In this document: positions 17,567 through 53,927 of the stretch, piece after piece
Numbering within the stretch: the first letter of the stretch is position 1
How the letters are laid out: each line of letters begins with the position of its first letter
Assembly: GCA_003224525.1 (NCBI GenBank)
Contig: QHZB01000184.1
Coordinates: 1 to 57,961, forward strand
Direction of reading: 5' to 3'
DNA: 57,961 nt
Origin: Acidobacteriota bacterium
GTDB lineage: Bacteria; Acidobacteriota; Terriglobia; Acidiferrales; UBA7541
Made by a program: the position numbers and the translations under genes
Notes under the pieces: generated by a model
Seen by the model: the letters and a program-made list of their open reading frames with translations, nothing else
What the model was told of the DNA's origin: nothing
Database searches by the model: none

Positions 17567-17839
17567 GAATCCCTCCCCTGAGCTTTCAAGTTTGCAGCAG
17601 CTATCCGCATCCCGGAGGATTGTAGGAGAAGAAGGGGATAGGAGCAGAAGTTTCTTGTCTGTGGGTATTTGTTGAGTTCCAGTTCAGACGTTCCAAGTCT
17701 GAGAAACCGCGCTGGGCCGGCGGAAATGCTTGTCGAGTCCGCCATAGCGCGGATGATCGCCGGTTATTCACGTGAGCATTCAGCGAGACGTCTTCTGGGG
17801 AGTTCCTAGTTAACCATAACACCCCCCACCCTATGTTTT

Positions 17840-20032: not shown

Positions 20033-20163
20033 GCCACCAAAGCGTGAGAATTCACAGAGAAGCATTAGGCACCGTGGGTGGGCTCGCGACAAGAACAACT
20101 GGAAGCGGATTTGGTTAACGCTTGCAGCCGCGATCCGCTGGTTCTTTTGCAAAGTGGGGTACA
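20033..20163 (+). pseudogene. Decayed tyrosine recombinase C-terminus (left copy)
   Basis: By alignment with the right copy this is the last part of an integrase (LGHQSVRITEKHYAPW type). Here one extra base after GAATT breaks the frame, and the codon of the catalytic Tyr, TAC in the right copy, is TAG. Nothing of the remaining integrase is present upstream. It cannot make an active protein. Confidence 0.75.
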
Positions 20164-20248
20164 CCAGAAGTACACGGAAAGGAGCGGCCCAACAACTCGT
20201 TCATCTTCAATAAGAAAGAATGGTGCCCGGGGTGGGAGTCGAACCCAC
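20033..20248 (+). repeat. Left copy of a 216-bp direct repeat (integrase end plus tRNA 3' end)
   Basis: Nearly identical, by eye roughly 90 percent, to 40761-40975 in the same orientation, with one extra base. The repeat spans a tyrosine-recombinase C-terminus, about 60 bp of spacer, and the acceptor and T-arm of a tRNA read on the minus strand. Similarity stops abruptly at the T-arm (20248), as expected for an attachment-site junction. Confidence 0.88.
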
Positions 20249-20272
20249 GAATGGAGGTTTTGCAGACCAATG
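20221..20272 (-). pseudogene. 3' half of a tRNA at the left repeat
   Basis: Read on the minus strand, the CCA end (20221-20223), acceptor strand CCCGGGC and T-arm GTGGGTTCGACTCCCAC are intact and identical to tRNA-Leu at 40948. Upstream is a loop CTGCAAA flanked by GGT/ACC, which resembles a Cys (GCA) anticodon loop, but no 5' acceptor strand or D-arm follows. It is a truncated tRNA or attachment-site scar, not a working gene. Confidence 0.6.
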
Positions 20273-20309
20273 ACGCGTCTTGAAGAGAGCTCTTTGTTTT
20301 CCTTCTGGT

Positions 20310-22466
20310 TCAGGTCGGCTTCGCTGGGTTGGGTGTTGCCGCCAGTTTTCCTCGAATCACTGTCACGGAAGCTTTGGGCAGCGCATAAATTGTGTCAACT
20401 CCGGCCGAAATCGTGGATCTTACAGCTGGCCCGTCCGGGTCGGCTGAGCCACCTGCGGGAACGAGCTTCAGGTCCGTATGCCACTTGTACTGCTCGCTAC
20501 CAAATGTCACTACGTCTACTGAGCCTGCAAGGTGGCTGTCGCTGTTGCTGCCATCACTGTGAAACGCGATTCGCACCGGATGGGGACTCTCCTGGTCCTT
20601 GTTCACCAGCATCAAAGACCATTGGCCATCGGGGCGGAGCACCGCGTAAGATGTGACGAGAACATGTCCGGCTGCGTCGCGGATGTCACTCGCGCTCGGG
20701 AAAATGTGGTGCTCACCGCTCCCAGGCTGGACCCACTCGAGGTTGATCATCTGACTCGCAAAAAACTGCGACGTAGGCTGCTGGATTTCGTATTCCTTGT
20801 TCATCGTGAATAGGCTGAAAGTGCCCGGGGACGTTCCGTGACAACCAAGGGACTCTCCGAGGGGAATGTAGTGGAAGTAGTAGACTGCGTTCCCACCTGC
20901 TTCGAGGAATGCACCCACGAAATCGGCCCACCAAAGCGCGGCAAAAATATCGACGAAGGATTCATCCGAACCGGCGGCGATGTTCGTTTCTGTGATGAAC
21001 ATGGGAACACCCTTGGGCAATCCGTCATCGCGCCAAACGTCCAGAATGTGGCGAACGAGGTTGGCTTCTTCGTAGAGCTCGCTCCACTGCAGCAAACAGG
21101 GCTCGAAAGGATAATGCTCGAAGGAAACGAACGAGAGATCACCGATGCGGCCGTGCGATTTCAGGTAATCGAAAAAGCGGCCCATCCAGGAAGTTCTCCC
21201 TTCCGCATCGGGCCAGACTTCAATGTCTTTGTTTACGCCCTCGAAGATCGGGCCTCCTAGCTTGAGCTTAGGATCAAGTTTATGGAGTGCAGCGGCCCAT
21301 TGCAGGTAGAACGCGCCGTAATCTTCGGGGAGTGTGTGTTTTCCGTCAGGCTCTTCGCCCATTTCCACATAGGAGATGGGATAGCCTCGTTTTTCGAGGT
21401 AAGCAACTTCGGCGACGGCATTCTCGGGATTGTCATAGATCATGGCGACAGGGACCATTGCGGGAAGTCCGCGCGTGATGCCGCTGGTATAGAAAAGGTC
21501 GAACCCCACCTGATCGCCACGGTCATTGATTACGGAGCTTTCATGCCATGGGTCGACGGAAGAACAAATCGTGTTGCTCTGCGAACGATCAGCCGTGTGG
21601 CGCACAACGTCGTGAAAGGCGCCGTCCGGCGTAAGCGTCCCGATGTAGAGTTCGCGAATGGCGTAACCGAGGCAATTGCGGCGATCGCCAGAGCCGTGGG
21701 TATCGCAACTGTTGGACGATTCCGTCATCCAGATGCGGACGAACCGCGCGGGAATGGGAGCACGCGAAAGTTGGAGGGTTGTGGCGCCGCCGGTGCCATT
21801 GGTTACGACGCCGCCGGGAAACGTGACCCAAGAGCCTTTGGTTGGTTCGCGCATGGCTTCGAGGCCGGTCCAATATTGGACGAGATAACGGCGAGCGTAC
21901 GGGGCCGTCCAGTGGATGCGAATTGCGTTGATGTCTTGAAGCGTCGCCAGATCGACGACGACCCATTGCGGATGCAAGCTGTCGTCTTCACCCGTGAAGG
22001 CCTCGCTGAGATATGGATTGCTTTTCCAGTACGTGTTTGGGTCGCCGTCTGTGAGTCGCGAATAGCTGGTTCCATCCGGACGTGAGAATCCCGCGTGAGG
22101 TAGGGGATAACCGAAGGAATGGCGGATAAACTCAGTGGGAGTCGTGTCGCCGACGAAGTAGCCCCTGTCGCCAGATTCACTCCACTTCCCTTTTGGGTTC
22201 CAATGCCAAGCCTCGACGTACAGTTCCGTATTCTGACGATATGTGACCATCTGCCAGCCAGCAGAGAGAATCTGCTTAATCATCCGTTCGGTAAAGATTT
22301 TGTCGGTGGCGGCGAGAGGAATGCGGTCAACGCCGGCGCCGAGGGTTTCCGTGGGACGAAAGGTGTTCGTGGCATGGCCAGAAGTGGTGTCAACGCGTAT
22401 GGTTTGTGCCCACGCGACTGGCACGCACGCCAAGAAGATCAGTGAGAGAACGCGCACAAGGTACAT
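20310..22466 (-). CDS. Secreted clan-A-like glycoside hydrolase with F5/8-type (CBM32-like) module
   Basis: 718 residues with a signal peptide (MYLVRVLSLIFLACVPVAWA). Residues about 130-280 look like a discoidin/F5/8-type C carbohydrate-binding module (RLTDGDPNTYWKSN, then QWVVVDLATLQDINAIRIHW). The rest is a TIM-barrel hydrolase: SYVEMGEEPDG (Glu371 or Glu372) fits the acid/base on strand 4, and MFITETN (Glu493) fits the nucleophile on strand 7 of clan A, closest in layout to GH39/GH79-like enzymes. It would act outside the cytoplasm on a glycan. It is the first gene inside the right-hand element and is divergent from the thioredoxin-like gene. The family number is not certain. Confidence 0.75.
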   Translation of the reverse strand: MYLVRVLSLIFLACVPVAWAQTIRVDTTSGHATNTFRPTETLGAGVDRIPLAATDKIFTERMIKQILSAGWQMVTYRQNTELYVEAWHWNPKGKWSESGDRGYFVGDTTPTEFIRHSFGYPLPHAGFSRPDGTSYSRLTDGDPNTYWKSNPYLSEAFTGEDDSLHPQWVVVDLATLQDINAIRIHWTAPYARRYLVQYWTGLEAMREPTKGSWVTFPGGVVTNGTGGATTLQLSRAPIPARFVRIWMTESSNSCDTHGSGDRRNCLGYAIRELYIGTLTPDGAFHDVVRHTADRSQSNTICSSVDPWHESSVINDRGDQVGFDLFYTSGITRGLPAMVPVAMIYDNPENAVAEVAYLEKRGYPISYVEMGEEPDGKHTLPEDYGAFYLQWAAALHKLDPKLKLGGPIFEGVNKDIEVWPDAEGRTSWMGRFFDYLKSHGRIGDLSFVSFEHYPFEPCLLQWSELYEEANLVRHILDVWRDDGLPKGVPMFITETNIAAGSDESFVDIFAALWWADFVGAFLEAGGNAVYYFHYIPLGESLGCHGTSPGTFSLFTMNKEYEIQQPTSQFFASQMINLEWVQPGSGEHHIFPSASDIRDAAGHVLVTSYAVLRPDGQWSLMLVNKDQESPHPVRIAFHSDGSNSDSHLAGSVDVVTFGSEQYKWHTDLKLVPAGGSADPDGPAVRSTISAGVDTIYALPKASVTVIRGKLAATPNPAKPT

Positions 22467-22607
22467 TCTTTTGCAGACTGGCCCAGGTGGCCCAGGATAT
22501 GGACCCTTTTGAAGCGATTTAATTGATTTGTCAAGTGGATCTTTTCGGCTTTTTTAGACCCAGTGGACCATTACACGCAGCGAAGGGTCTCGGTTGGCGC
22601 CCTGCTG

Positions 22608-22613
22608 TATAAT
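22608..22613 (+). promoter_or_regulatory. TATAAT box upstream of the thioredoxin-like gene
   Basis: A perfect TATAAT preceded by TG, in the divergent gap before 22721. No good -35 sits 16-18 nt upstream. If used, it gives a leader of about 100 nt. Confidence 0.3.
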
Positions 22614-22720
22614 GACTGCTCCGAAGTTCCAAAATGCAAATCCTCGCTCCAGTGGCTATTCCTCGAAGGATTCCTTGCGAATCGGGAAGAGAACCAGATT
22701 GGGGTCGCGCTAGAATCAAA

Positions 22721-23887
22721 ATGTTTCTGTTCAGTGTGCTGCGTTGGCTGGCTCTGGCCACATTAGGAACATTAGGTGTGTCAGTGATTGCGGATGAGCC
22801 TGGACCTCCAACCTTGCCAATCGGGGCTGCGGCTCCGGACTTCTGCCTCCCCGGCATCGATGGAAAGACACACTGCCTCAAAGACTATGCGGCGAGCAAA
22901 GTCCTGGTAATAGCGTTTACTTGTAATCATTGCCCGACAGCCCAACTCTATGAGAGCCGCATCAAGCAGCTGGCCACTGATTATCGTGAACGCGGCGTGG
23001 CGTTAGTCGCAATCCAACCAAACAATCCAAATGCGGTTAGGTTGGACGAGATGGGTTACACCGATGTTGGCGACTCCTTCGAAGAGATGAAGATGCGAGC
23101 TGCTTATCGTCGCTTCAATTTTCCTTATCTCTACGACGGCGAAACCCAGAAGGTTTCCCAGGCGTATGGGCCGTCCGCAACTCCGCATCTTTTCATCTTT
23201 GATGCCGAGCGGAAGCTCCGCTATCAAGGACGCGTCGATAACAATCCGCGCGAGCCTTTGGTCACTAGCCGGGACGCGCGCGCTGCCATAGATGCTCTTT
23301 TGGCTGACAGACAGGTCCCTTTGGCGAAAACTCCTTCGGTGGGCTGCTCCACCAAATGGCTGTACAAAGAAGAGGGACGCAAGGAAGAGCTTGCGGAGAT
23401 CGAAAGTAGATCCGTGCAGCTGCTGCTTGCAAACGCGGAGGAGCTGAAGAGCTTACGAAGAAATCCAACTGGTAAGTTATTGCTCGTGAACTTCTGGGCG
23501 ACGTGGTGCGGCCCCTGTCAACAGGAAATGCCAGATTTTCAGACGATTTATCGCATGTACGGTCACCGCGCCTTTGAGGTTGTCACCGTCAGCATCAACT
23601 ATCCAGACGAAAGGCCGGGCGTGCTCTCTGTCCTGAATAAACTGCACGCTGCGAGCCGGAACCTTCTTCTGGGTTCTACCGATATTTATTCGCTGCTGGC
23701 GGCGTTCGATGCAGATTGGAATGCCGCCGTACCGTATACCACATTGATTCGACCTGGCGGAGAGGTCATCTTTAAGCGTCAAGGCACAATCAACCCTTTG
23801 GAAGTGAAACGCTTGATCATCGCGAATTTGGCCGACGATGACTACATCGGCCATAAGGCTTACTGGCAAACGCCCTCTGAGAAATGA
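22721..23887 (+). CDS. Exported protein with two thioredoxin-like domains
   Basis: From the ATG at 22721 the protein is 388 residues and begins with a signal peptide (MFLFSVLRWLALATLGTLGV). Domain 1 (AhpC/TSA-like) has APDFCLPGIDGKTHCLKDY and the redox motif CNHCP. Domain 2 has the classic FWATWCGPCQQEMPDF with WCGPC. Both have a cis-Pro region (SATPHLFIF and AVPYTTLI). It would be a periplasmic thiol-disulfide oxidoreductase. An in-frame start at 22634 is possible, but its extension is not signal-like. The TonB receptor gene follows after about 240 nt. A decayed fragment of a similar gene lies at 30.7 kb. Confidence 0.85.
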   Translation: MFLFSVLRWLALATLGTLGVSVIADEPGPPTLPIGAAAPDFCLPGIDGKTHCLKDYAASKVLVIAFTCNHCPTAQLYESRIKQLATDYRERGVALVAIQPNNPNAVRLDEMGYTDVGDSFEEMKMRAAYRRFNFPYLYDGETQKVSQAYGPSATPHLFIFDAERKLRYQGRVDNNPREPLVTSRDARAAIDALLADRQVPLAKTPSVGCSTKWLYKEEGRKEELAEIESRSVQLLLANAEELKSLRRNPTGKLLLVNFWATWCGPCQQEMPDFQTIYRMYGHRAFEVVTVSINYPDERPGVLSVLNKLHAASRNLLLGSTDIYSLLAAFDADWNAAVPYTTLIRPGGEVIFKRQGTINPLEVKRLIIANLADDDYIGHKAYWQTPSEK

Positions 23888-24062
23888 ACCACCCCACCGC
23901 GTCGTGCCCGGCGACTTAGACGCTTCCGGTGCTATTTGCGCCCTTCCCTGTGCATTTCATCTGAGGCAGGCTCCCCCAAAGAAGAAGAAGTAATTCCGCT
24001 CACCCATGAATGTGACGCACGGTAATTGCAGGAAGGCAGCCAGGTTTGAACCGGAAATTAGC

Positions 24063-24092
24063 TTGATAAATGCGAGATTCTGGGATTAGTAT
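24063..24092 (+). promoter_or_regulatory. Candidate promoter of the TonB receptor/TPR operon
   Basis: TTGATA (24063-24068), 18-nt spacer, TAGTAT (24087-24092). Transcription would begin near 24100, which excludes the start at 24070 and favours ATG 24124 or 24127. Confidence 0.4.
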
Positions 24093-24123
24093 GTGCCCAC
24101 TAGATGTCGCTTGGCGGTGTCGT

Positions 24124-27100
24124 ATGATGTATTTCCGGAAGCAATTAACGCTACGGGCGGGAATGCGGCCCTTCGCTTATCTTCATTTCTTTATTTGCCT
24201 TTCTTTATTTTTTGAGGGCGCAGCACACGGCCAGGTTTACACAGGTTCTATAACGGGTTTAATTCAGGATCCCTCGGGCGGCGTAGTTCCCAATGCCTCA
24301 GTGGTCCTAACGGATATCGATAAAGGTTTGAAGTATTCCGCCACGACAGACTCATCGGGCCGTTATGTACTGCGCAGTCTGCCACCGAGCACATATAGCG
24401 TCCGAGTGGAGGCTTCAGGGTTTCGCTCCGAGGTTCAGAGCGGCATCGTCATTGTGGTCAATCAGAATCTAACGCTGAACGTGTCACTGCAAGTGGGCAC
24501 GGCTCGCGAAACCGTTGAAGTCAGTGGGCAAGCTCCGGCTCTCGCCACAGAAGACGCCGTCACGGGGCAGAACCTCAACAGGACCTTCATCAATGATCTT
24601 CCACTAGTAGGCCGCTCGGTGTTCGATCTGGCGCTATTGACCCCTGGGATCAACCAACCTGCCGGGAACACGTTCGGCGCCAACACTATGGCCAACAACT
24701 GGATCTCGGACGGCAGCCGTAATGCGCAAGCGGATATCCTGATCGACGGGGTGAGCACGGTGGGAGTTGAGCAGAACACAGCGATCGTAAATCCCCTCTA
24801 TACTCCTTCAGTCGACGCTGTGCAGGAGTTCAAAGTGCAGCAATCGAATTTCAGCGCGGAAATCGGCTTCAGCGGAGCCACCGTTGTGAATGTCGTGACG
24901 CGCTCTGGAACCAACGATTTTCACGGCAGCATCTATGAATTCCTGCGCAACGACAAGCTCAACGCCAACAACTTTTTCGACAACGCGAATGGCATAAAGA
25001 TTGCGCCAGTGCGCTGGAACGAGTTCGGTGTCACCGTTGGCGGACCGATCCGGAAAAACCGCACCTTCTTCTTCTTTGACTATGAGGGCAGTCGCACCAG
25101 CAGCTCGGTCACGAAAAATGCCGGGGTACCCAGCGCCCTGGAGCGCACAGGAGACTTTGGAGAACTCTGCGGTTATCAGCTCGACCCAAACAATCAGCCT
25201 GGCACCTTCGATGCCAACGGGAGGTGTTCTGCGGACGCTGGCCAAATCTGGGATCCATACACGGGTGTTTACGATCCCGTCCAGGGCGGCCCGGTGCGCC
25301 AGAACTTCATCCCCTTCAATAATCTGGCCACTTATACGAGTCCCGGCAACCCAAAGATTGCGGCCCTTCATCCCATACCAAACGCGCCTGGGAACCTCAT
25401 AGATCCCGTGGCCTTTAGAATGATGCAGTTGTTTCCACTGCCTAATCTGCATGTGGGCTCAGGTGCGTACGACCGGCTGAACAATTGGATTGGCTCCGGT
25501 GCCGACAAGAATCGAAACGATCAAATCGATGTCAAAATCGACCATCGCTTCCGCGACGCCACTATGCTCAGTGCCAAATTTTCTTATGGCACTGGTTACA
25601 CCAAGCCTGCCAACTTGTTCGGAAATGTGGGTGATGCTTACTCCTCGGGTCTCTCTGACGGCGGGCCCAAGTTGTTGGCAATCAACGTCACACACACATT
25701 TAGTCCAACTACGCTGCTGACCGTCTCCCTGGGCCTGACGCGGGCGTTTTCGTTCGATCACGGTGGCTCAGCGGCCGACTTCCCGAATTTCGACCCGGTG
25801 AAAGACCTGGGAATGCCTAGTTACATTGGCGACGCCGGCATCCGCGCCGCACCCTCGATCAGCGTGTACGGCGGTTATTCTTCGGAGGGCGGAAACAATT
25901 CGATAGGCACACAGGCCTGGACGTACCTGAAATACGCTCAGGAAACCCATCACCTCATCGGTACGCTGAGCCGCACAACGGGCCCTCACGAACTGAAGTT
26001 TGGCGCTGAAGCTCGGTTGCGGCGCGTCAATATATTCTTTCCCGGGGTTCCCGCTGGTACCTATTCATTTGACTACAATACCACCTCGCAGCAACCTTGG
26101 TCGGGCGGTGGCGATGCCATGGCGGGCCTTATGATCGGTGCTGGCGGCCCGGGCAATTGGGGAACTTACGAAATTGACTACGCGGCCGCCACTCAGAACT
26201 GGAACATCGGAAGTTTTGTGCAGGACAACTGGCGGGTCACACCCAAACTGACATTGAACATTGGCATGCGATATGACCTCGATCTGCCCAGAACGGAACG
26301 CAGCAACCGCATTAGCTGGCTTGATCTGAACTCCCCTTCGCCTCTGCAAGTTCCCGGAATGCCCAACTTGAAGGGAGGCTTACAGTATGCCGACAAAGAC
26401 CGTCGGTCGCCCTATGATAACAACTATAACGGATGGGGGCCGCGGTTTGGATTCGCGTACCTACTGAGACCGCATACTGTACTGCGCGGCGGCTACGGCA
26501 TCTACTACAGCCAAAACAAGGGAGCCGCCGCCGGAACGGGGATCAGCGACCAGGGCTTTGTTGAGCAGACCAACTGGCTCAACACGTACCAAAACGACGG
26601 CGCCACCCCGTGGAGTTTTCTGAGTAACCCCTTTCCAGGCGGTCCCAGGCCGCCAACCGGCGCCAGCCTGGGACTTCTGACGGACGTCGGCTTTGCGATC
26701 GCCGGACCGATTCGGAACCGAAACGCCCGGCCCTATGAGCAGACATGGAGTTTCGGAATTCAACATCTTTTGCCGGGCGATGTCGTGGTGGACAGCACAT
26801 ACGTGGGCAAGAAAGGGACTCACCTGTATTTTGGGAACGCCGGCAACGTGGACTACCTAACCTCCGCGCAAGCAGCGGCTTTCGTGAATGATCCTGGATT
26901 CTACAACGAGTTCGTACCCAACCCCTTCGCCGGGATCATCACCGACCCGAGCAGTGGCCTGTCTGCTCCCACTGTGCAACGTTGGCAGTTGAGCCTCCCC
27001 TATCCGCAGTTCACGGGAGTGACGGCCACGGATCCACCCTGGGCCAACTCCAGCTACCACGCATTCCAGCTGCGCGCCGAGAAGAGATTGTCCAACGGCT

Positions 27101-27807: not shown

Positions 27808-27879
27808 GATAGAACCCCGGTGCCAATCGGGTAGACGGTTTGACCGTTTTAGACTAGCGCTGGGGTTTGCTTTTTGGCT

Positions 27880-30588: not shown

Positions 30589-30669
30589 CAGGTCTTGCAT
30601 TCGCTTTACCGTTCGGTCTTTCCCACTTCTTAATTGACTACTCATTTTTGCGCGAGCTCGTCCGAATCG

Positions 30670-30800
30670 GGCCAAAGACACAGCTGCAGGCAACTAGGTG
30701 GAATCTTGCCCGCGGTTCCACCGATATTTATCACTGCTGGCGCCATTCCATGCACATTGCAATCCTGCGGCATCCTGCGAAATGCCGCTCCGGGCGAAGC
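30670..30800 (+). pseudogene. Decayed fragment of the thioredoxin-like gene
   Basis: The DNA from about 30700 (GGTTCCACCGATATTTATC and on) aligns with 23677 and on of the thioredoxin-like gene. Roughly 45 of 57 bases match by eye, and the encoded motif GSTDIY, then LLA, F and WN, is recognisable through frame breaks. It lies in the 296-bp gap between the converging TPR and CRTAC1 genes, where no intact gene is seen. A GCGGCAT/ATGCCGC inverted repeat (30767-30788) may help terminate transcription. Confidence 0.55.
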
Positions 30801-30884
30801 CTGCTGGCAGCCCCACGCCGAGAAATGAAGCTAGCCAAGCTTCCCTCGCCCGGCTGTGGGCTCCTCATTTTGAGAACCTCTAAG

Positions 30885-32663: not shown

Positions 32664-34257
32664 GCGGCGTTTCCTTTTCCTTCAGCTGGTCATAAAGAGC
32701 CGCTTGCTTGGCTGCTTCTTCCTTCTGGCCCAGCTGTCGATAGGCACGTGACAACGCAAAGTGAGTCTTGGCACTTGACGGAGCTAGCTTTGCAGCCTTT
32801 TCCAGGTGTATCAGTGCTCTGGCGGCTTGGCCCCGGCGGAGAGCGAGGTCTCCAAGCTCGTAATGTGCCTCAGCAAGCCTGCTATCGTGCGCCACGGCAG
32901 AATTGAGGAGTTGTTCAGCTCTGACTTCGGCACCTTTGTTACCAGTTTCGGCTTCTTTCAGCAACACCTGGCCCAGTTCAAGTTCAAAGCGCGCTTTTTC
33001 ATGAAACCGCCCGATGGCACTATCAAGAGTTGCTTTCGCTTGCTCCGGCATCCCTGCATTGGCCTGCGCTCTTGCAAGCCCGATCGTGGCATCCGAGCTG
33101 GCGGGTTCGAGTTGAGCAGCGCGAGTGAAAGAGCTGACGGCGTCCGTGAAGTCACCGGCACCAAGTTCAATCGATCCTTTTGAGGCGAAAACGCGGGAAG
33201 AATCCGGGAATGCTTTGGCCATCCGCTGGGCGAGCTCCATAGCTGAAGAAATCTGTTTTTGAGCAAGAAGGATGCTTGCTAAGTCCAGATAGCTTGCCTC
33301 GTTGGCGGGATCGAGCTGGATGGCTTCTTGAAGCGCGTGCATCGCTTCCTCATGGCGGTTCTGTGCCCGAAAGCACGATGCAAGCAAACGGTTTACTTCA
33401 CTCGTCTTGTAACCATCATCTATGAGCTGCTGAAGAATTTGCCTGCTCTCCTCGAACTGCTGCGCATGGAATTTCACCAGGGCAAGCCTGTAGCGCAGGT
33501 CGGTCTGATCAGAATAATGCTGCGCCAGGGAGGATAAGAGCTTCTCAGCTGTTTTGTAATCCTGCATTTCGTCGGCGATCTGCACTCCAAGAAACACAGC
33601 CCGAACTCCGGCCGCGTGGTTCTGTAGTTTGTTGAGCCACGCTCGCGCTTTTTCGGTTTCCCTGATGTGATAGTAGGACCTCGCAAGCGCGGCGATCGAT
33701 TCCGGTTGCGCGCGCACCAATGTGGGCACGGACGCGAGCGTCTTGGCTGCCGTGGCATAGTCTTTGGTGTTCTCCGAGACCATGCCAAGGAGCAGCAATG
33801 CCTGAGGATCGCCCGGATTCGCATTGAGAAGCATTCGAAGATTTTGCCGAGCCTCCGCGTAACGGTGCAACTGCCAAAGATTAGCCGCGAGGTACCGGCG
33901 AGCCACAAAGTCCCGCGGATCGATTTTCAGCCCTCGCTGAAAGTAGGATGTGGACTCGTCAAGCTTCTTTTCCATTGCGAGAACGGTGGCGAGATCCCGG
34001 AGGAATTCCGCCTTGCCCGGCGCCGAAGCCACCGCCTTGCGAAGCTCGGCTTCCGCCGACTGAAGGTTTCCGACCTTTGCGAGTGCGCGCCCCTCCGCCG
34101 AATGCGTTTCAGCGCTGTTATCTTGTGTCGCATTATAGAAAAGTTGGTGCATGGAAAGGACAGAGCTAGGAGCAAAGAGAAATGCCACTGCACACAGCCT
34201 ACGACTGAGAGCGCCGGCGAGCCAAGGCCTGCGCCGGGCTGTTCTTATCGTGCTCAT
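32623..34257 (-). CDS. Exported TPR-repeat protein, 544 residues
   Basis: The N-terminal export segment (residues about 18-36) is followed by roughly a dozen tetratricopeptide repeats, for example AEAELRKAVASAPGKAEFL, AMHALQEAIQLDPANEASYL and ALIHLEKAAKLAPSSAKTHF. The C-terminus is charged and Pro-rich. It overlaps the CRTAC1 gene by 41 nt, so the pair is co-expressed; pairing of TPR and ASPIC/UnbV proteins recurs in Acidobacteria and Planctomycetes. No catalytic residues are evident. Confidence 0.85.
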   Translation of the reverse strand: MSTIRTARRRPWLAGALSRRLCAVAFLFAPSSVLSMHQLFYNATQDNSAETHSAEGRALAKVGNLQSAEAELRKAVASAPGKAEFLRDLATVLAMEKKLDESTSYFQRGLKIDPRDFVARRYLAANLWQLHRYAEARQNLRMLLNANPGDPQALLLLGMVSENTKDYATAAKTLASVPTLVRAQPESIAALARSYYHIRETEKARAWLNKLQNHAAGVRAVFLGVQIADEMQDYKTAEKLLSSLAQHYSDQTDLRYRLALVKFHAQQFEESRQILQQLIDDGYKTSEVNRLLASCFRAQNRHEEAMHALQEAIQLDPANEASYLDLASILLAQKQISSAMELAQRMAKAFPDSSRVFASKGSIELGAGDFTDAVSSFTRAAQLEPASSDATIGLARAQANAGMPEQAKATLDSAIGRFHEKARFELELGQVLLKEAETGNKGAEVRAEQLLNSAVAHDSRLAEAHYELGDLALRRGQAARALIHLEKAAKLAPSSAKTHFALSRAYRQLGQKEEAAKQAALYDQLKEKETPRAPDPSSDTPPSN

Positions 34258-34524
34258 CCGTCTTCTTCCGTAGCGCTCCAGAATTCCGAGTTTACACTGA
34301 GTCAGAGGTACTCAAAATCTGTTTGCCGCTGTTGTTCTGCAGGACACCGCTCGGGGCTAAGTGAGAGCAAGCCCGTGATGCGAAAGGAGAGCCAACGTCA
34401 CGGCGGCGCCGTCACGGGAAGGTAACGGCGGGCGTCCCCCCTACGTTTTTTTGATTGACCTGTTCATCCAAAGTTTCGGATGAGCGCGATACGGCCAATT
34501 GGTCCGCCTGAAACACGGAGAATA

Positions 34525-34553
34525 TTGTCGCGCCAGGATGGAGCCGTTACAAT
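34525..34553 (+). promoter_or_regulatory. Sigma-70-like promoter of the ceramidase-like gene
   Basis: TTGTCG (34525-34530), ideal 17-nt spacer, TACAAT (34548-34553), predicting a leader of about 190 nt. The rest of the 34258-34747 gap holds no supported gene. An 8-bp palindrome CCAATTGG at about 34495-34502 lies just upstream and could bind a regulator. Confidence 0.5.
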
Positions 34554-34753
34554 CGAGGTGATTTACAGCTCGCTGTGGGCAGCTTGCGTTAGGCCGACTA
34601 CGACTGGTTCCATCCAGGTCGTCCTAAACAAGAGTTCGGCAAGTGGTGGTCTGCTGGACGGAGGCGATCAAGTGCCCCAAAAAGGCGGAAAGACAATGAG
34701 CAAGCTCGTCGCGCCTGTGCAGACAGTGGCATTCTAAATCCGGAGAAATGATC

Positions 34754-36094
34754 ATGATAATTTGGCCGTTTCGCGCAGTCCTCCTGGCCATGGCGTCGCT
34801 TCCCCTGGCACTACGAGCTGAAAGCGCCGGCTTACAGGCGGGCGCCGCCAAGGTTGACATCACGCCATCTGCCGACGCCGCGCTACCGATGAGCGGATAT
34901 GCCGATCGCAAGGAAGGTTTCAAGGGAATTCACGACCACATCTACACGCGCGCCATTGTCTTTGGCGACGGCACCAGAGTTGCGGCGGTGGTGGCGTGGG
35001 AATTGATCGGTGTGCCAGACGCTGTTTGGGCGGAGCTATCGCAGCGCATCGCCCGGGAGACTGGCGTACCAGCCGAGTATCTGCTTCTCTGCGCAGTGCA
35101 TGACCACAGTGCACCGGCTCCGTTCGGCATGTACGGCAACGACTCGCCGAAATCCGCCGCTTACACCAAACAGGTCGAAGATGCCACGGTTGAAGCTATC
35201 CGCAAAGCGAAAGAAAATCTCCAGCCAGCTAAAATCGGGATCGGAACCGGAAGAGCCTACGTGAATATCAACCGCCGCGAATATTCGCCCGACAACGGAT
35301 GGTGGCTAGGCTACAACCCCGAAGGGCCATCGGATAAGACCGTGACGGTGATACGCTTCGATACGCTTTCTGGCAAGCCGATCGCCTTGCTGATCAACTA
35401 TGCCGTTCATGCGGTTGTCATGGGAGGTGAGAATTATCAGATCAGCGGTGATCTCGCTGGAGCTACGTCACGCTACGTAGAGAGTTATTATCGTGGGAGG
35501 CCCGAGGATGCTCCGCGCGGCGATGCCGGCGCGGCGATTCAGCTGCGGCCTGAAGAGACTACCGAAAACGTCGTGGCTTTGTGGACGAGCGGCACAGCGG
35601 GCGACCAAAATCCTATTTCGCTCGCGCGCGGTTCGGATTTCACGATGGTGGACGCTCTAGGAAAAATTCTTGGCGAGGAGGCAGTACGCGCGGCGGGAGC
35701 TACTCACCCCACTGACCAAGCCAAGATCCAGGGCAAACAGCGGGTGGTTACTTGCCCAGGCAGAAAAGTTGAAGCGGGTCCGCTGCCGCGCAAGGAATAT
35801 AAATGGGAGGACTCCGACCCCGTCGGCATTCGACTCAGCCTGCTCATGATCAACGATATCGCCTTGGCCGGCGTATCGGGCGAAGTGATGACCATGATTC
35901 ACAAACATCTGAAAAAGAGGGCCCCTTTGAGCCGCACCGTCATGCTGACACATGCCAATGGATCGAGCGGGTACATTCCCGATGATGCCGCGTTCGAGCA
36001 GATCAGCTACGAGATCACCACATCGCGGCTGAAGCCAGGCTGCGCCGAGAACGCAATCGTGGACGGCTTTTTCAACTTGATGCAGCAGCGTTAG
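34754..36094 (+). CDS. Neutral/alkaline ceramidase-like hydrolase, exported
   Basis: About 446 residues. The ATG at 34754 has GGAG 8 nt upstream, and the ATG at 34748 is too close to it. A signal peptide (WPFRAVLLAMASLPLALRA) is followed by the N-terminal domain of the neutral ceramidase family: LQAGAAKVDITP, MSGYADR, the metal-site-like AVHDHSAP (the family has THTHSGP) and NYAVHAVVMGG. The C-terminal immunoglobulin-like domain of true ceramidases is missing. Such short forms are common in bacteria, often near glycan-degradation genes, and their substrate is unknown. Amide hydrolysis of a lipid or modified sugar is possible but inferred. Confidence 0.8.
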   Translation: MIIWPFRAVLLAMASLPLALRAESAGLQAGAAKVDITPSADAALPMSGYADRKEGFKGIHDHIYTRAIVFGDGTRVAAVVAWELIGVPDAVWAELSQRIARETGVPAEYLLLCAVHDHSAPAPFGMYGNDSPKSAAYTKQVEDATVEAIRKAKENLQPAKIGIGTGRAYVNINRREYSPDNGWWLGYNPEGPSDKTVTVIRFDTLSGKPIALLINYAVHAVVMGGENYQISGDLAGATSRYVESYYRGRPEDAPRGDAGAAIQLRPEETTENVVALWTSGTAGDQNPISLARGSDFTMVDALGKILGEEAVRAAGATHPTDQAKIQGKQRVVTCPGRKVEAGPLPRKEYKWEDSDPVGIRLSLLMINDIALAGVSGEVMTMIHKHLKKRAPLSRTVMLTHANGSSGYIPDDAAFEQISYEITTSRLKPGCAENAIVDGFFNLMQQR

Positions 36095-36150
36095 AAAGTC
36101 CGCCTGCGCGGAGCTATCTTGCGTACGTCCTCGGGCCGGAAGCTCCTTGT

Positions 36151-37956
36151 TTATTCGCGCTGCGTTGCAACATTCGAGTGCGCAGATCGCCCAGCGTCAT
36201 TCTCAGCAAGCACTCGGTATGAGGTCGTTCTTTGGTTGTTCGAGATTTGTTTGTCCAGGAAGCTGGTTTGACTGGCGGGCAATTTCGTGACAGTCTGCCA
36301 TTGTCCATGTTTGCCGGTGCGGCGTTCAACCAAGACGGATTCCGGATTGCCCCCGTGTATCATCCATGTCAGCCGGACGCCGGCCTGTTGTCTTGCTAAA
36401 ATCAGGTCGCTGGGCGCCTCAGGTAATTCCATCCAGTCGAAGTAGCTTTCATCAGCGATAGCCATCACACCGTCGCGGAGCGGCATTTGCTCGAGAGTGT
36501 CAGTGGTACCGGGCTTCCAGGAAAGCAGGGTCATTTCCCCAGATGCGACGTCCACGAGCACGGGGTTCGGGATACCTGAGTTGATGATCTGCAAGGTAGC
36601 TTTTCCCGTCGGCGACCCGCCTCCTGCCTTGCTGAGGACAGGCAGCCAGTACGCGAGGATCGTCTTGTTCTTCGGAGACCGGAATCCATACCCAACGAGT
36701 GACGGCGAAGAAGAGGCCGCGTCGTCACTGCGTATCTCAATGGAAGGATCAAACTTGGTATCTGAAAATAGCGTGGTTGTATTCTGAAGTGCGGTAAAAA
36801 CCGGGCGCGGAATGAAATCCTCCGGGCGCAACATGAGGCCATGCAGGATGCCGAAATCATCCGACTCGTTACCATCGGTGGCCCCGACCATCAGCCAAAC
36901 AAATGTCCGAACTCCTGCTGCTCTGTCCGCAATCAAACCGCGGGGAATGTATTTGACCTGCACCGATTCATCCGAGCCTTCCCAGGAAGGGATCGAGTTG
37001 AACTCATCGTTCCAGAAAACAAGATCTTTTCGAACTCCGGGATAGCCGCGGACCATGTCGCGTAGTGCCTTCGGAGACTGATTAGCATATCGTTTGTCAT
37101 CCATCGCCTCAGGATTTAAGTTATGACCATAGTTTGGGTAAATGTGATAGGCGAACACGTCGATGCTATCCGCGCACGCGCAAGCATCAAGCGACCGTTT
37201 CGCAAAGTTCCGGTCCGCGCCAGCCAGAGCGCCAAAAACAATCTTGGCTGTTGGATCTGCTGCCCGAATCGCCGGGACAACAGCTTTGAATAGCCTGCCA
37301 TATTCTTCTGGGCTGGGCGCTGGATTCCAGTAATCGATATTAGGTTCATTCCAGATCTCGTAGTATTGAGCTCGTCCGCGGAAATGTTTGGCCATCCATG
37401 CTGCGTAATTCGAGAAGGCCTCGATCTGCTCGGGCGTCTTGGGCGGCCAGAATACGGAATAGAGGCTTCGGTCAGGGTTATGAAAACCGCCTGGCGCCGG
37501 CGTTATGGTCTGCGGAGGATGTCCCGCAGGTGAGGTGTAAAGGGGGTTTCCATAGAGCAATTGGATCTCGATGTGGACGCCGTTTTCAACCAGCGAGTCA
37601 ATCTGGTCCTCCACTTCCGGAGCAATCGAGTATTCTCCGCGCTTACGCTCCACCCAGTCCCAACTGGTGTAGTCCGAGCTGTTTTCGTATTGACCGATGC
37701 GGATGAAATTGATACCGGCGTCGAACATGCGAGTCCACCACCATCGTTTCCAAGGAAGGTACGGATCTCGAGGAAGATCTGTGTTAATGCCGAAGCCATC
37801 GTGTATCTGGCTCGATCTTCGCGGTACCAGATGATTCGCCAATTTCCTGCCGGCCGACGGGCTCTTCCAATGCTGGACAGCGATGATAGCCAGGGCAAGC
37901 ACAAATACAACAGAGATTTTGGAAACTATTCGATGGGCAGTCAAAAAATTAGCCAT
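36151..37956 (-). CDS. GH39-like glycoside hydrolase, membrane-anchored or exported
   Basis: About 601 residues from the ATG at 37956, which has a TGAGG ribosome binding site; a GTG 15 nt upstream is weaker. A hydrophobic segment near residues 12-30 exports or anchors it. The catalytic domain has YEIWNEPNIDYW (acid/base Glu near 204) and VFWNDEFNS (nucleophile Glu near 318), as in clan-A GH39 xylosidases and iduronidases. The C-terminal 90 residues form a fibronectin-III-like domain (APSDLILARQQAGVRLTW and on). It is divergent from the SDR/dehydratase pair, suggesting that the released sugar is oxidised by them. Substrate not determinable. Confidence 0.82.
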   Translation of the reverse strand: MANFLTAHRIVSKISVVFVLALAIIAVQHWKSPSAGRKLANHLVPRRSSQIHDGFGINTDLPRDPYLPWKRWWWTRMFDAGINFIRIGQYENSSDYTSWDWVERKRGEYSIAPEVEDQIDSLVENGVHIEIQLLYGNPLYTSPAGHPPQTITPAPGGFHNPDRSLYSVFWPPKTPEQIEAFSNYAAWMAKHFRGRAQYYEIWNEPNIDYWNPAPSPEEYGRLFKAVVPAIRAADPTAKIVFGALAGADRNFAKRSLDACACADSIDVFAYHIYPNYGHNLNPEAMDDKRYANQSPKALRDMVRGYPGVRKDLVFWNDEFNSIPSWEGSDESVQVKYIPRGLIADRAAGVRTFVWLMVGATDGNESDDFGILHGLMLRPEDFIPRPVFTALQNTTTLFSDTKFDPSIEIRSDDAASSSPSLVGYGFRSPKNKTILAYWLPVLSKAGGGSPTGKATLQIINSGIPNPVLVDVASGEMTLLSWKPGTTDTLEQMPLRDGVMAIADESYFDWMELPEAPSDLILARQQAGVRLTWMIHGGNPESVLVERRTGKHGQWQTVTKLPASQTSFLDKQISNNQRTTSYRVLAENDAGRSAHSNVATQRE

Positions 37957-38169
37957 TTCTATGAACCTCACCGGTCGACTAAGGGACCCGTATACTTCCT
38001 GAACTTATTGCAAAAACCAGGCTTTCCATCAAGCACCCCGGTCTTCTATAACGCCCTTTTCGGAAGGCTGCGGCAACGGTACAGTAGAGCGGCTGAGTAA
38101 GCCGCCCGGAACGAGTATAAGGCAGAGAAAAATTGATATTTCGAAGCCCAGGAACAGATCCATAGAAAC

Positions 38170-38973
38170 ATGCGCAGAATAACATCTGATTCAAAGGAAG
38201 CGCGCACCATTGTCGTAACTGGCGGAGCAGATGGCATAGGCCGAGCCGTAGTCCTGCTTTGTGCGGCACGCGGAGACCAGATCGCAGTGCTTGACAAGAA
38301 CGCCGAAGCAGCAAAAACTACAGCCGACGAAGCAGTGAAAAGAGGCGCCAAATCTGCATTGGGCCTCGTATGCGATGTTGGGTTTGAAGAACAGGTTGAG
38401 AAAGCCTTTGAGATCATCTGGAACAAGCTAGGAGCTCCGTATGGTTTGTTTACCAGTGCGGCTATTGATCTCGGAGGCCTCATACACGAACTTCCAGCTG
38501 CGACGTGGCACCAAGTTCTAGATACCAATCTGAATGGCACTTTTCTCGCCTGTAAGCACGCGATCAGAAGAATGCGGCAGGCAGATGTGCCAGGTTCCAT
38601 TGTGTGCGCATCTTCACCGACCGGGTTCGTGGCGCTGGCTGCTGGAGGAACCGGCGCCTATAGCGCAACAAAGGGCGGAATATCCTCACTCGTACGTTGC
38701 ATGGCGATTGATTACGCTCCTTATGGCATCCGGGTGAATGCAGTTGTTCCCGGTGCGACGGAGACTCGCTTGATGTGGAGCAACGTTCCCGCCGAAGATA
38801 TTCCGCGCATGCGTAGAGTCCTTTCTAAAGAGATTCCCCTGGGGCGCTTAGCACAGCCAGAAGAGCCGGCCCAGGCTGTCGCTTGGTTACTTTCAGAAGA
38901 ATCTTCTTACGTCACTGGATCACATCTTATTTGCGACGGGGGTATTCTCGCAAAAGCATCCATCAGCACATGA
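38170..38973 (+). CDS. SDR-family dehydrogenase, probably sugar-specific
   Basis: A 267-residue classical SDR. It has the cofactor loop TGGADGIG near residues 18-25, Ser in IVCASSPTG, YSATK catalytic pair, and the C-terminal YVTGSHLICDGG. The enolase-superfamily gene begins 29 nt downstream on the same strand, so they are an operon. In known sugar-acid routes (fuconate, rhamnonate, galactonate) an SDR and an enolase-superfamily dehydratase act in the same pathway, so a sugar 1-dehydrogenase or 2-keto-3-deoxy-sugar-acid dehydrogenase is plausible. That is inference from context. Confidence 0.87.
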   Translation: MRRITSDSKEARTIVVTGGADGIGRAVVLLCAARGDQIAVLDKNAEAAKTTADEAVKRGAKSALGLVCDVGFEEQVEKAFEIIWNKLGAPYGLFTSAAIDLGGLIHELPAATWHQVLDTNLNGTFLACKHAIRRMRQADVPGSIVCASSPTGFVALAAGGTGAYSATKGGISSLVRCMAIDYAPYGIRVNAVVPGATETRLMWSNVPAEDIPRMRRVLSKEIPLGRLAQPEEPAQAVAWLLSEESSYVTGSHLICDGGILAKASIST

Positions 38974-39002
38974 GTACATTCGTTTAGAACGGTAATAGCG
39001 CT

Positions 39003-40136
39003 ATGAAAATCGTGAAAATAAAAGCGGCGGGCTTGCGCGGCTGCACACCAGAAGGGGGATGGGCCAACGAGATAAAGCCCCAGGATTGCGTGCATACGCT
39101 CGTTGCCGTCTTTACGGACGAGGGCATTACCGGATGGGGATCGGTCTTCACCAATGACGGATTGGTGCAGGCGGCTCTGCAGGTTCTTGAACCCTTATAT
39201 GTTGGTGAAAATCCCCAGGAACCAGAACGCGTGAGCGAGAAACTTCATGCGAACACGTTCTGGATGGGTCGCGGGGGGACGATCACCCACACCATCAGTG
39301 GGATTGACATAGCCATGTGGGACATCCTGGGCAAGACCACGGGGCAGCCGGTCGGCAGGTTGTTGGGCGGTTGCTACCGAAATCGTGTTCTCCCCTATGC
39401 TTCGCTGCTGATGCGCAAACCGGGCGCACTCGCAGAACATCTCATCGCGATCCGCGAGCAAGGCTTCCGGGCATTCAAGATTGGCTGGGGACCATTCGGC
39501 CGCCAAAGCGATGCGATGGATGAGCAGATTGTCCGAGCTGCCCGTGAGGCAGTTGGGTCCGAAGCCCTGCTCATGGTGGATGCGGGGGGCAGCGATGCGT
39601 TCTGGCATCGGTCCTTCAAATGGGCGGTTCGAACCGCCCGCATGTTGGCCGACTTCGGCGTCTATTGGTTTGAGGAGCCATTGCCTCCCGATAATTTGTC
39701 CAATTACGTGCTACTACGGCAAAACTCACCCTTGCCCATCGCGGGGGGCGAGGTTCTGACTCGGCGGCAATCGTTCGTCCCATGGCTCCAAGGTCGTGCG
39801 CTCGATATTGTGCAGCCAGATGTGACGAAAGTTGGCGGCATCAGCGAAGAGCGGAGGATTGCTTGGATGGCAGAGGAGAATGGTATTCGCTTCATTCCGC
39901 ATGGATGGAACACTGCCGTGGGGCTGGCTGCTGACCTTCATCTTGCGTCCGCAAGCCGAGACACGGACATGGTGGAGTACCTCACCGGTTCTCCTTTTAT
40001 CGATGACATTGTGGAGAACAAATGGCAATTGGATGATAACGGTATGCTGGTGGTGCCGAACGGGCCGGGACTGGGTATTTCCCTCAATCTTGACGCAGTG
40101 GAGAAGTACACCGGTCAAAGATTTAGCAGCTCGTAG
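39003..40136 (+). CDS. Enolase-superfamily sugar-acid dehydratase (mandelate racemase/MLE family)
   Basis: 377 residues. The metal ligands are readable as Asp193 (LLMVDAGG), Glu224 (WFEEPL) and Glu250 (IAGGEV). The general-base dyad of the mandelate-racemase subgroup is Asp273 (QPDVTKVGG) and His300 (FIPHGWN). On strand 2 the usual KxK is K159-I-G (AFKIGWG), so only one Lys is kept, which narrows the stereochemistry but does not fix it. Members dehydrate aldonic acids to 2-keto-3-deoxy acids in the cytosol. It is the second gene of the operon with the SDR. Galactonate-, rhamnonate- or fuconate-type activity are alternatives. Confidence 0.87.
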   Translation: MKIVKIKAAGLRGCTPEGGWANEIKPQDCVHTLVAVFTDEGITGWGSVFTNDGLVQAALQVLEPLYVGENPQEPERVSEKLHANTFWMGRGGTITHTISGIDIAMWDILGKTTGQPVGRLLGGCYRNRVLPYASLLMRKPGALAEHLIAIREQGFRAFKIGWGPFGRQSDAMDEQIVRAAREAVGSEALLMVDAGGSDAFWHRSFKWAVRTARMLADFGVYWFEEPLPPDNLSNYVLLRQNSPLPIAGGEVLTRRQSFVPWLQGRALDIVQPDVTKVGGISEERRIAWMAEENGIRFIPHGWNTAVGLAADLHLASASRDTDMVEYLTGSPFIDDIVENKWQLDDNGMLVVPNGPGLGISLNLDAVEKYTGQRFSSS

Positions 40137-40261
40137 CGACGCAATATCGGTGGTGCCTCATCCTGTCAGCCCCGTTATTTGCTGTTATGCCTGTAGAGCC
40201 TCCGAGTAGAGGAGACCTGGTAGAGCTGTAGGTTTTCTTTGGCTGTGTCCACCGTTTCCAG

Positions 40262-40600
40262 TTTCGGTCGCGGTAGGGATACCGATTGCTCGGCACCCCC
40301 CGCACAGACCCGTGCTGGCGCGTTTAACGCACACGGTTCTTACCTCGGATGTTTGGCGTCAAAGCGTTCAGTCGGGTACGGGTGAAGGATACAGACGTCA
40401 GGTAGCAAGCCTCCGAGTCGCTCCAGGAAGCGTTCCCAGGTCCAGCGGTTTCGTTGGCTTCGTCGGCGAATCTGACGCAGCCACATCCGAAGCACGTGAG
40501 TCCGGAATTGTCCCAAGCTCTTCTCGTTTCCAGGAACAGCATGATATTGGAAATATCCCCTCACCACTGCCGGCATAAATACTGCGCCAGGGCAGAACAT
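40262..40600 (-). mobile_element. 3' remnant of a group II intron with reverse-transcriptase C-terminus
   Basis: On the minus strand, 40340-40570 encodes the end of a group II intron-encoded reverse transcriptase/maturase: VVRGYFQYHAVPGN, then RRRSQRNRWTWERF and ILHPYPTERFDAKHPR before TAA. Immediately downstream are RNA-like hairpins: CCGTG...TTAA...GCACGG (about 40308-40337, domain V-like) and GGTGCCGA-GCAA-TCGGTATCCCTACC (about 40270-40302, domain VI-like with a bulged A). The reverse-transcriptase domain and intron 5' part are missing, so it is a dead fragment. The flank 40137-40261 shows no gene. Confidence 0.7.
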
Positions 40601-40756
40601 CCCTTGTTCTTGTTCTTTTGTAGCCAGTCCTTGACCCTTGCGACGGTGTTCTTGCCGGATAAGAGTTCCAGAATGGTTAGGGCAGTTTTCATGCCCGTCT
40701 TAGTTATACTAAGCGCGGCTGATAGTTCATCATTATTCTACGGGACATGCGCAGGG
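40601..40756. other. Unassigned debris between intron remnant and integrase fragment
   Basis: The minus strand holds an open stretch reading KTALTILELLSGKNTVARVK and on for about 43 codons. It has no start of its own and no recognised family. Most likely it is broken mobile-element sequence. Confidence 0.3.
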
Positions 40757-40947
40757 CTAGGCCACCAAAGCGTGAGAATTACCGAGAAGCATTACGCACC
40801 GTGGGTGCGCTCGCGACAGGAACAACTGGAAGCGGATTTGGTTAACGCCTGGAGCCGCGATCCGCTCGTTCTCTTGCAAACTGGGGTACACCAGAAGTAC
40901 GCGGAAAGGAGCGGCCCAACGACTCGTTCATCTTCAATAAGAAGGAC
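40757..40947 (+). pseudogene. Tyrosine recombinase C-terminal fragment (right copy)
   Basis: The frame reads GLGHQSVRITEKHYAPW and continues about 45 residues. LGH is the conserved third catalytic box and HY carries the nucleophilic Tyr of phage-type integrases. The N-terminal and central domains are absent; sequence upstream is unrelated debris. The fragment points toward the 3' end of tRNA-Leu, the usual placing of an integrase beside its attachment site. It is not functional. Confidence 0.78.
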
Positions 40948-40975
40948 TGGTGCCCGGGGTGGGAGTCGAACCCAC
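40761..40975 (+). repeat. Right copy of the ~216-bp direct repeat
   Basis: Matches 20033-20248 in the same orientation and ends in the T-arm of the intact tRNA-Leu. Beyond 40975 this copy continues with genuine tRNA-Leu sequence, while the left copy diverges. The right copy therefore marks the native tRNA end. Confidence 0.88.
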
Positions 40976-41035
40976 ATGAGGAAAAATCCCCGGAGGATTT
41001 TAAGTCCTCAGCGTCTGCCATTCCGCCACCCGGGC
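40948..41035 (-). tRNA. tRNA-Leu (anticodon UAA)
   Basis: 88 nt with encoded CCA. Acceptor GCCCGGG pairs with CCCGGGC. The D-arm starts GGCGGAATGGCAGACGC, the anticodon stem-loop GGACTTAAAATCC gives anticodon TAA, the long variable arm (CGGGGATTTTTCCTC region) is of leucine type, and the T-arm is GTGGGTTCGACTCCCAC. Its 3' end is the likely integration target of the elements to the left. Confidence 0.95.
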
Positions 41036-53580: not shown

Positions 53581-53927
53581 CGCCATTCTCCTCCTCACAG
53601 GATAGCTTTGCTGTGGAGTCCCCGGGGCGGTCAATTGGCCACACACACAGAAGATTAACTGGCCTCTCGGACAGGATCCGTTACACCCTGCGGAGCCGGC
53701 GGGTGCTCCGCTCAACCGGTTGGCGAAGGTAATTGAGCGGGGATGGCAAATCAGTTTACGGACCCGCAGAAAGCGTACATTTCGTGATACTTCCCGGTCT
53801 CTATCATGCTAAGGAGACCGTGGAATGATTTCTGCCCGGCGCCTGAAGCGCAGCATCGTAAGCCGATCCTTGAAACAAAAGCCAGCCTCGCGCATCACAC
53901 TTCTAAACATGGGGTAAGGAGAAAATC

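Follow-up and report, generated by a model that had tools for sequence, protein, structure and literature searches.

Why does a single acidobacterial contig carry the end of an integrase gene, joined to the end of a tRNA gene, twice in the same orientation? The stretch examined here, the window, is the whole 57,961-nt contig QHZB01000184.1 of an Acidobacteriota bacterium, part of a fragmented metagenome assembly of 516 contigs. A reading made without database searches (the sequence-only reading) had proposed that two related integrative elements stand here in tandem at one tRNA gene, an AbiE-carrying one on the left and a glycan-use one on the right. To compare the locus with relatives, we ran a 280-base query covering the integrase end, the adjoining arm and the tRNA on 89 genomes of the family, 36 of which belong to the genus (the Candidatus Acidiferrum group). 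G-numbers denote relatives' genomes, L-numbers stretches fetched from them and C-numbers contigs; coordinates without a label are those of the window, and features are collected in Table 1. The answer we favor, and consider likely, is tandem site-specific accretion of two decayed elements between a flavoprotein gene, called lpd here, and tRNA-Leu(UAA).

The repeat finder placed the two copies at 20054-20248 and 40781-40975 (195 nt, 93% identity, spacing 20727), and alignment with relatives extended the same-orientation homology to starts at 20033 on the left and 40756-40761 on the right. The repeat proposed earlier at 20033-20248 and 40761-40975 is thus real, its integrase part included. The window has one other direct-repeat family of at least 30 nt (14-nt seed), 121-nt copies at 53.1-53.4 kb, and a search of the own genome with the repeat DNA returned two places, a third match (75%) covering the tRNA part only. 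Each copy joins the C-terminus of a tyrosine integrase to a non-coding arm, which is followed by 28 nt from the 3′ end of tRNA-Leu(UAA). Indeed, as the sequence-only reading had it, the right copy continues into an intact tRNA-Leu(UAA), found by both ARAGORN and Rfam, and the left copy breaks off inside the tRNA, holding 28 of 28 nt of the 3′ end and then diverging. The integrase part matches the last part of tyrosine recombinases that stand at the same tRNA in relatives, and in the window contig both integrases survive as C-terminal remnants only, as had been read from the letters. The left remnant is a pseudogene, with a 1-nt insertion and a TAG in place of the catalytic Tyr codon. The right one has lost its N-terminal part and still has the catalytic Tyr codon; the frame of 40763 translates to a tyrosine recombinase end with the motif EKHY, which we take to be the catalytic-Tyr motif of these enzymes. 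A search of the contig for a third copy of the core, allowing up to 25% mismatch over 16, 20, 24 or 28 nt, gave none, barring scattered 16- and 20-nt matches at that limit; a further tRNA 3′ end, envisaged by the sequence-only reading left of 17.6 kb and beyond the AbiE genes, was likewise not found. Rfam (E up to 0.5) gave no other structured RNA than the tRNA at 17000-42000.

Up to the core, the two copies agree at 92.5% of positions, and either one matches the G008 copy at 94.6%. They differ by 7.5%, and each is closer to G008 than to the other; recent local duplication of the repeat is therefore ruled out. We also rejected a single element flanked by att repeats. The outer copy has 188 nt of integrase end and arm of its own, as well as a relaxase end, and an outer repeat with its own integrase end is not explained by a single integrase-made element. 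Hence the logic of a tandem, on which the sequence-only reading had also relied.

At least 12 genus relatives besides the window have the repeat sequence at tRNA-Leu or its core; this is a lower bound, with weaker matches (G017, G061, G064, G039 and integrase-only pieces elsewhere) left out. Integrase part and arm are both present in G004, G006, G008, G014, G018, G020, G022, G025, G032 and G034, and the sequence in G003 and G009 hardly extends beyond the arm. Full-length integrases, with open frames of 435-440 aa, stand at tRNA-Leu in G020, G032, G034, G004 and G025; the G018 gene is near-full with breaks, and the remaining relatives have remnants. The G020 protein, the one tested, is a Phage_integrase (PF00589, 7.9e-15). 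A profile search with the integrase alignment matched 13 loci, 11 filed under Acidobacteria, Acidiferrum or Acidiferrales and 2 in one "Betaproteobacteria" bin; Candidatus Acidiferrum typicum UBA7541 is one of the 13, and the window probably comes from the same acidobacterial genus.

The arm between integrase and tRNA behaves differently from the integrase body. Over the body of four close full-length copies (G020, G032, G034 and G004), the proportion of synonymous differences (pS) was 0.410 and the ratio of the non-synonymous proportion to it (pN/pS) 0.11; over the stretch from the SRDP motif to the tRNA (28 codons) in the same four integrases, pS was 0.133 and pN 0.125, a ratio of 0.94 from a small sample (pairwise totals of 48 non-synonymous and 16 synonymous differences). 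The arm is therefore kept as DNA and not as protein. In these four genomes the integrase open frame runs through the antisense strand of the tRNA gene (L034 15720-15951 and similar). We considered this tail as a functional protein end and rejected it, given the ratio in the arm and a G025 frame that stops ahead of the core. The arm contains the motif GTACAC-N5-GTACAC, a putative arm-type site. The window has two matches to it, versus 0.02 expected, both within the two repeats. Among 29 cores in 28 stretches from relatives, 12 have the motif within 90 nt, one nucleotide shorter in G003 and with GTACAA in G025, and these are the 12 relatives with the repeat sequence.

The interval between lpd and tRNA-Leu is a hotspot. 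The lpd protein, 83-94% identical to that of the window, lies on the same contig as tRNA-Leu or its core in 9 relatives. Both lpd and the tRNA itself are on one contig in 9 genomes, the window included, at spacings of 0.9 (G016), 1.9 (G010), 2.3 (G023), 5.0 (G013), 14.3 (G030), 15.5 (G022), 22.9 (G021), 23.4 (window) and 30.4 kb (G006). DNA homology between the window and the near-empty G010 site ends at 17658; the inserted stretch therefore runs from about 17.66 to 40.95 kb. Neither of the two cargo blocks of the window occurs in this interval in any of the eight relatives (blastn; the sole match within the blocks is 62 nt in G030), and no common "empty" sequence beside the tRNA was seen among the relatives compared. 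Junctions like the left one exist elsewhere. Integrase-side sequence and core with no tRNA after it are also found in G014, on a contig with lpd and near the contig end, and in G019; isolated cores with unrelated left sequence and similar right arms are found in G001, G033 and G028. The match to the tRNA ends at nt 21 in G014, 23 in G019, 24 in G028, 26 in G001 and G033, and 28 in the window. Ending at nt 21-28 in all six is as expected under site-specific recombination. The isolated core relics themselves (L108 10577, L109 8126 and L110 3970, with the right arm TACGTAAGTTATTGATT in L108) are probably the outer att sites of another element type.

What kind of element stood on the left? The relaxase remnant directly adjoins the integrase remnant at 20033, and the DNA match to the G020 relaxase region stops at that junction. 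G020 and G004 are the two relatives with enough contig to give the surrounding order. In G020, counting from the tRNA, it is the integrase, a small gene that we read as helix-turn-helix (HTH)-like, o386, o309 and then a 924-aa relaxase on the opposite strand; G004 has the same gene order by tblastn. The small gene has no PHROGs match. The G020 relaxase matches TrwC (PF08751, 1.2e-83) and, above the NCBIfam cut-off, MobF (NF041492). The two junction points of the left relic are about 6.6 kb apart in G020 (8985 and 15623), and one deletion therefore accounts for the relic, which holds the relaxase (residues 861-924) and the integrase of this MobF family as remnants only.

The AbiE pair had been taken for cargo of the left element, and the relatives bear this out by their integrase and tRNA neighbors and by DNA identity. 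Relatives of AbiEii occur in 12 of the 89 family genomes (E up to 1e-30, own included). Among the copies whose surroundings were examined, the AbiE genes adjoin the tRNA-Leu integrase in G018, G022 and G008, with the contig ending there in G018 and G008, and in G003 they adjoin a related integrase (41-59%) at tRNA-Met; around the G007 copy there was no element-protein match and no tRNA within the 13 kb fetched. The DNA identity of AbiE is 95.1% to G018 and 92.6% to G022, compared with 87.4-87.6% and 75.4-78.7% for core genes. Identity above that of core genes points to horizontal movement. In the window this putative type IV toxin-antitoxin pair, at 18227-19679, has the AbiEii-like gene first and the AbiEi-like gene second; the usual AbiE order is the reverse.

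The right segment is flanked by the identical 28-nt cores at 20221 and 40948, with the same integrase-side sequence left of each. Its integrase content is the C-terminal remnant only. No transfer gene was found in it: the G020 relaxase, HTH-like protein, o386 and o309 had no match and Pfam gave none among the main open reading frames (ORFs), other transfer families not having been searched singly. The group II intron fragment near the right end has no match in Pfam or NCBIfam and no Rfam intron match. The rest is cargo, part of it plausibly glycan-related and the rest not by Pfam, so that the "glycan-use" label fits in part. Block 1 is collinear with G018:C259 65491-79307 (82.2%) and partly with G003, G007 and G012 (83.5, 78.4 and 77.8%); in the stretches fetched around these four sites, neither a tRNA nor any match to the G020 element proteins was found. 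Its identity is below that of core genes for G018 and G003 (87.3-87.4%), and block 1 was therefore not recently exchanged with these two. G018 has no flank in common with G007 or G012 outside the block, which thus looks like an accessory cluster. Its first gene occurs in 12 of the 36 genus genomes and its FG-GAP/UnbV gene in 9, not every match having been followed. Block 2 matches G006:C85 at 130.3-135.5 kb (80.0%), internally rearranged, and its enolase-superfamily gene occurs in 2 of the 89 genomes (E up to 1e-80, own included). The 60 kb fetched around the G006 site hold no tRNA gene or element proteins; a 16-nt tRNA-like match 35 kb away (E 0.16) was taken as chance. We also considered an origin of block 1 within the own genome and rejected it provisionally. 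The gene that follows the block in G018 sits in the own contig C199, where the preceding 1.4 kb matches neither G018 nor the window and the contig starts.

These data suggest the following history. Two related elements, sharing one tyrosine-integrase specificity, would have entered the 3′ end of tRNA-Leu(UAA) in succession, between lpd and transketolase. At each insertion the 3′ end of the tRNA would have been restored, with one core copy remaining as a trace. On the left, the element would descend from the type [tRNA]-integrase-HTH-o386-o309-MobF relaxase, which relatives have in intact form; the loss of about 6.6 kb would then have fused the relaxase C-terminus to the integrase C-terminus, with the AbiE pair as this element's cargo. 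The right element would have retained only its integrase end, with the group II intron fragment nearby and the two accessory gene clusters as cargo. Both would now be integrase-less relics of the cis-mobilizable element (CIME) type. With a core at both ends and an arm beside each, the segment 20221-40947 might still be excised by an integrase acting in trans. The repeat, the homologies, the hotspot, the junction of relaxase and integrase and the conservation of the arm are direct observations; we infer both this order of events and the residual mobility of the right segment.

Several observations weigh against such a history. The tRNA is intact and the inner junction is present, but the outer core of the left element was not found. 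AbiE reads toward the integrase in the window and away from it in four relatives (G018, G022, G008 and G003). The comparable junction of G019 has no arm motif, being one of the 17 cores among the 29 with none within 90 nt. In a tree of the ~187-nt segment (12 sequences) the two window copies fall together with 66% ultrafast bootstrap; this decides nothing, and an old duplication would be neither supported nor excluded by it. On the right, blocks 1 and 2 occur elsewhere in relatives at sites with no tRNA or integrase, and since the cargo is found in such settings, its delivery by an integrase is something we infer. In the stretches fetched at G018:C259 and G006:C85 the right-hand cargo genes stand with neither a tRNA gene nor G020 element proteins nearby, a situation that the sequence-only reading had itself named as grounds for refuting its model. 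Only 56 nt separate the left core from cargo shared with the non-tRNA site of G018, and the arm motif is nowhere else in the window, so that the right element shows no right-hand arm. Finally, the two integrase remnants start at reference positions 1218 and 1223, no more than 5 nt apart, with unrelated upstream flanks. Near-identical truncation points would be rare from independent deletions; this is the best argument for other models.

Homologous recombination is the alternative that survives best. Cargo DNA with an integrase end and a tRNA end would have recombined by a single crossover with a resident remnant, giving the 216-bp direct repeats. This would suit repeats far longer than a 28-nt core, cargo clusters that stand elsewhere in relatives with no integrase, and remnants that begin at nearly one integrase position. 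However, the left copy ends at the core, as do the junctions in G014, G019, G001, G033 and G028, which is a site-specific signature, and the copies are 7.5% different before the core. We regard this route as unlikely. If one truncated end had been duplicated in tandem long ago and the flanks replaced later, this would account for the matching truncation points and agree with the weak grouping in the tree, but the flanks are unrelated, the left one is explained by one deletion within a known element type, and the G008 copy is nearer to either window copy than one window copy is to the other; such an old duplication appears to us improbable. A misjoin of two metagenome contigs at the repeat, which an assembly in 516 pieces invites, is very improbable, given a longest exact run of 29 nt common to both copies and a like left junction on the lpd contig of G014, a separate assembly.

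The left relic can be traced to a wider family of MobF elements in the genus, which are apparently mobilizable. The relaxase occurs in 11 of the 36 genus genomes (E up to 1e-40), the own genome included with a fragment on C78, and we examined 15 stretches with relaxase matches. Nine of them have a tRNA gene, and all nine have o386, o309 and the relaxase. The tRNAs are Met (G025, G034), Ala (G034, G006), Lys (G034, G004), Arg (G001) and Leu (G020, G004). The other six stretches have no tRNA, and four of these start or end close to the relaxase. In six non-Leu stretches (G025, G034 twice, G006, G001 and G004) the ORF adjacent to the tRNA is a Phage_integrase; in the tRNA-Lys stretch of G034 a HEAT-repeat protein is beside the tRNA and the integrase is 3.7 kb away (tblastn). 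The G020 and G004 elements have their own integrase and their own relaxase. Neither o386 nor o309 has a match in Pfam, NCBIfam or PHROGs. VirB4 (PF03135) is present in 13 of the 36 genomes; where a genome has both (8 genomes), VirB4 and the relaxase never share a contig, with other VirB4/TraC families not searched, many contigs short and no element seen end to end. The lack of VirB4 beside the relaxases fits mobilizable elements, and is not proof of them.

A broader proposal, which we put forward tentatively and think rather doubtful, is that the left relic belongs to an Acidobacteriota MobF family whose o386-o309-relaxase backbone exchanged its tyrosine integrase several times and thereby reached tRNA-Leu, -Met, -Ala, -Lys and -Arg genes within the genus, and that relics keep arm and core for mobility in trans by intact members. 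A literature search on such elements in Acidobacteria, judged by titles, found no paper. What is new here is a family in Acidiferrum that uses different integrases at five tRNA species, together with an arm motif preserved in both relics. In this uncultured acidobacterium, gene islands seem to grow at one tRNA gene through the stacking of decayed elements, and the locus ties them to a conjugation-related element family in a phylum where the search by title found none. Two predictions can be tested: an excision circle and trans-mobilization by intact relatives.

Other changes were seen around the same tRNA. In G032 and G012 the tRNA-Leu gene is split from the 5′ side, with a 41-42-nt 5′ half near transketolase and a full tRNA with different upstream sequence (common CTAAAACATAGCACAA) 3.5 or 12 kb from it (L035 2968-3055 and 6529-6569; L051 13277-13364 and 1260-1301). 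Matches of ~40 nt to the tRNA 5′ half occur in other family genomes too, and a literature search on integration into a tRNA 5′ half found nothing. Other insertions near tRNA-Leu contain defense- or toxin-like genes, namely SIR2/STALD, Fic and HipA (L036 18442-19956, L041 4805-5902 and L035 3349-4764). The window's transketolase is in two overlapping ORFs, and most relatives listed have one frame of ~700 aa or more; the split is a frameshift or an assembly error. The adjacent 121-nt repeat copies (76%) span 53143-53389, inside a minus-strand ORF at 51889-53715.

Table 1. Features of the tRNA-Leu(UAA) locus and of the related backbone in relatives.
Feature	Position	Strand	Basis
lpd, dihydrolipoamide-dehydrogenase-like flavoprotein; conserved left chromosomal flank	16154-17566	-	PF07992/PF02852
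AbiEii-type nucleotidyltransferase toxin gene	18227-19126	+	PF08843 9.9e-16, above Pfam cut-off; 91-95% DNA identity to G018 and G022 copies
AbiEi-type partner (antitoxin) gene	19038-19679	+	NF047376 8.2e-12, below cut-off (45.2 vs 150 bits); AbiEi_4 0.045
MobF/TrwC relaxase remnant, last 64 residues	19832-20020	-	tblastn 58% to residues 861-924 of 924-aa G020 relaxase, 5.7e-12
Left copy: integrase C-terminal remnant (pseudogene) and non-coding arm	20033-20220	+	92% to G020 integrase locus
Arm motif GTACAC-N5-GTACAC (left), putative	20159-20175	+	motif scan
att core between the two elements (tRNA-Leu 3′ end, 28 nt)	20221-20248	+	28/28 identical to 40948-40975; like junctions in G014, G019
Cargo block 1: F5/8-type C domain, thioredoxin/AhpC, TonB-type outer membrane protein, TPR, FG-GAP/UnbV, TPR genes	20305-34317		Pfam
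Cargo block 2: neutral-ceramidase-like, GH39/GH5-like, short-chain dehydrogenase, enolase-superfamily genes	34832-40123		Pfam
Group II intron reverse transcriptase/maturase C-terminus fragment	40343-40579	-	53% to residues 415-493 of annotated LtrA, 2e-21
Right copy: integrase C-terminal remnant and non-coding arm	40756-40947	+	94.6% to G020 integrase locus over 40756-41035
Arm motif GTACAC-N5-GTACGC (right), putative	40886-40902	+	motif scan
att core within tRNA gene	40948-40975	+	identity with left core; junction comparison
Intact tRNA-Leu(UAA)	40948-41035	-	ARAGORN; Rfam RF00005, 55.9 bits
Transketolase (two ORFs), conserved right chromosomal flank	41513-43539	+	Pfam; near tRNA-Leu in relatives
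MobF relaxase backbone with o386, o309	L034 8767-14613; L129, L134-L138, L141		different tyrosine integrases at five tRNA species

How does this locus compare with known systems? The type of structure is known, both as CIME accretion and as MobF mobilizable elements; the locus is only mildly surprising and offers a new family with a clear case history, not a new mechanism. PMC5704250 describes tandem structures that arise when an integrated element decays to a CIME and another integration follows. Like the CIMEs described there, the relics of the window have lost integration and transfer genes, kept att sites and form an array at the end of one target gene; unlike them, they are in an acidobacterium, have MobF-type ancestry on the left and no partner integrase in the contig, and are only putatively mobile. 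The islands at ssrA in Dehalococcoides (PMC3146451), which stand in tandem, are similar in that several share one RNA gene, carry short direct repeats and in some cases have no integration module. There the module-less islands are discussed as possibly cis-mobilizable and the cargo includes reductive dehalogenase genes. Those islands are attributed to serine recombinases at a transfer-messenger RNA, those of the window to tyrosine recombinases at tRNA-Leu. For the relaxase, PMC11389934 lists MobF among relaxase families, and PMC5704250 states that no canonical integrative mobilizable element (IME) then known encoded MobF. IMEs with MobF are described in Mesorhizobium by PMC8627217, and MobF IMEs are therefore not new. 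These are likewise integrative and mobilizable, with a MobF relaxase and in some cases an adjoining tRNA gene; most of the rhizobial elements have a traACD locus, whereas the Acidiferrum backbone has o386 and o309 beside its relaxase.

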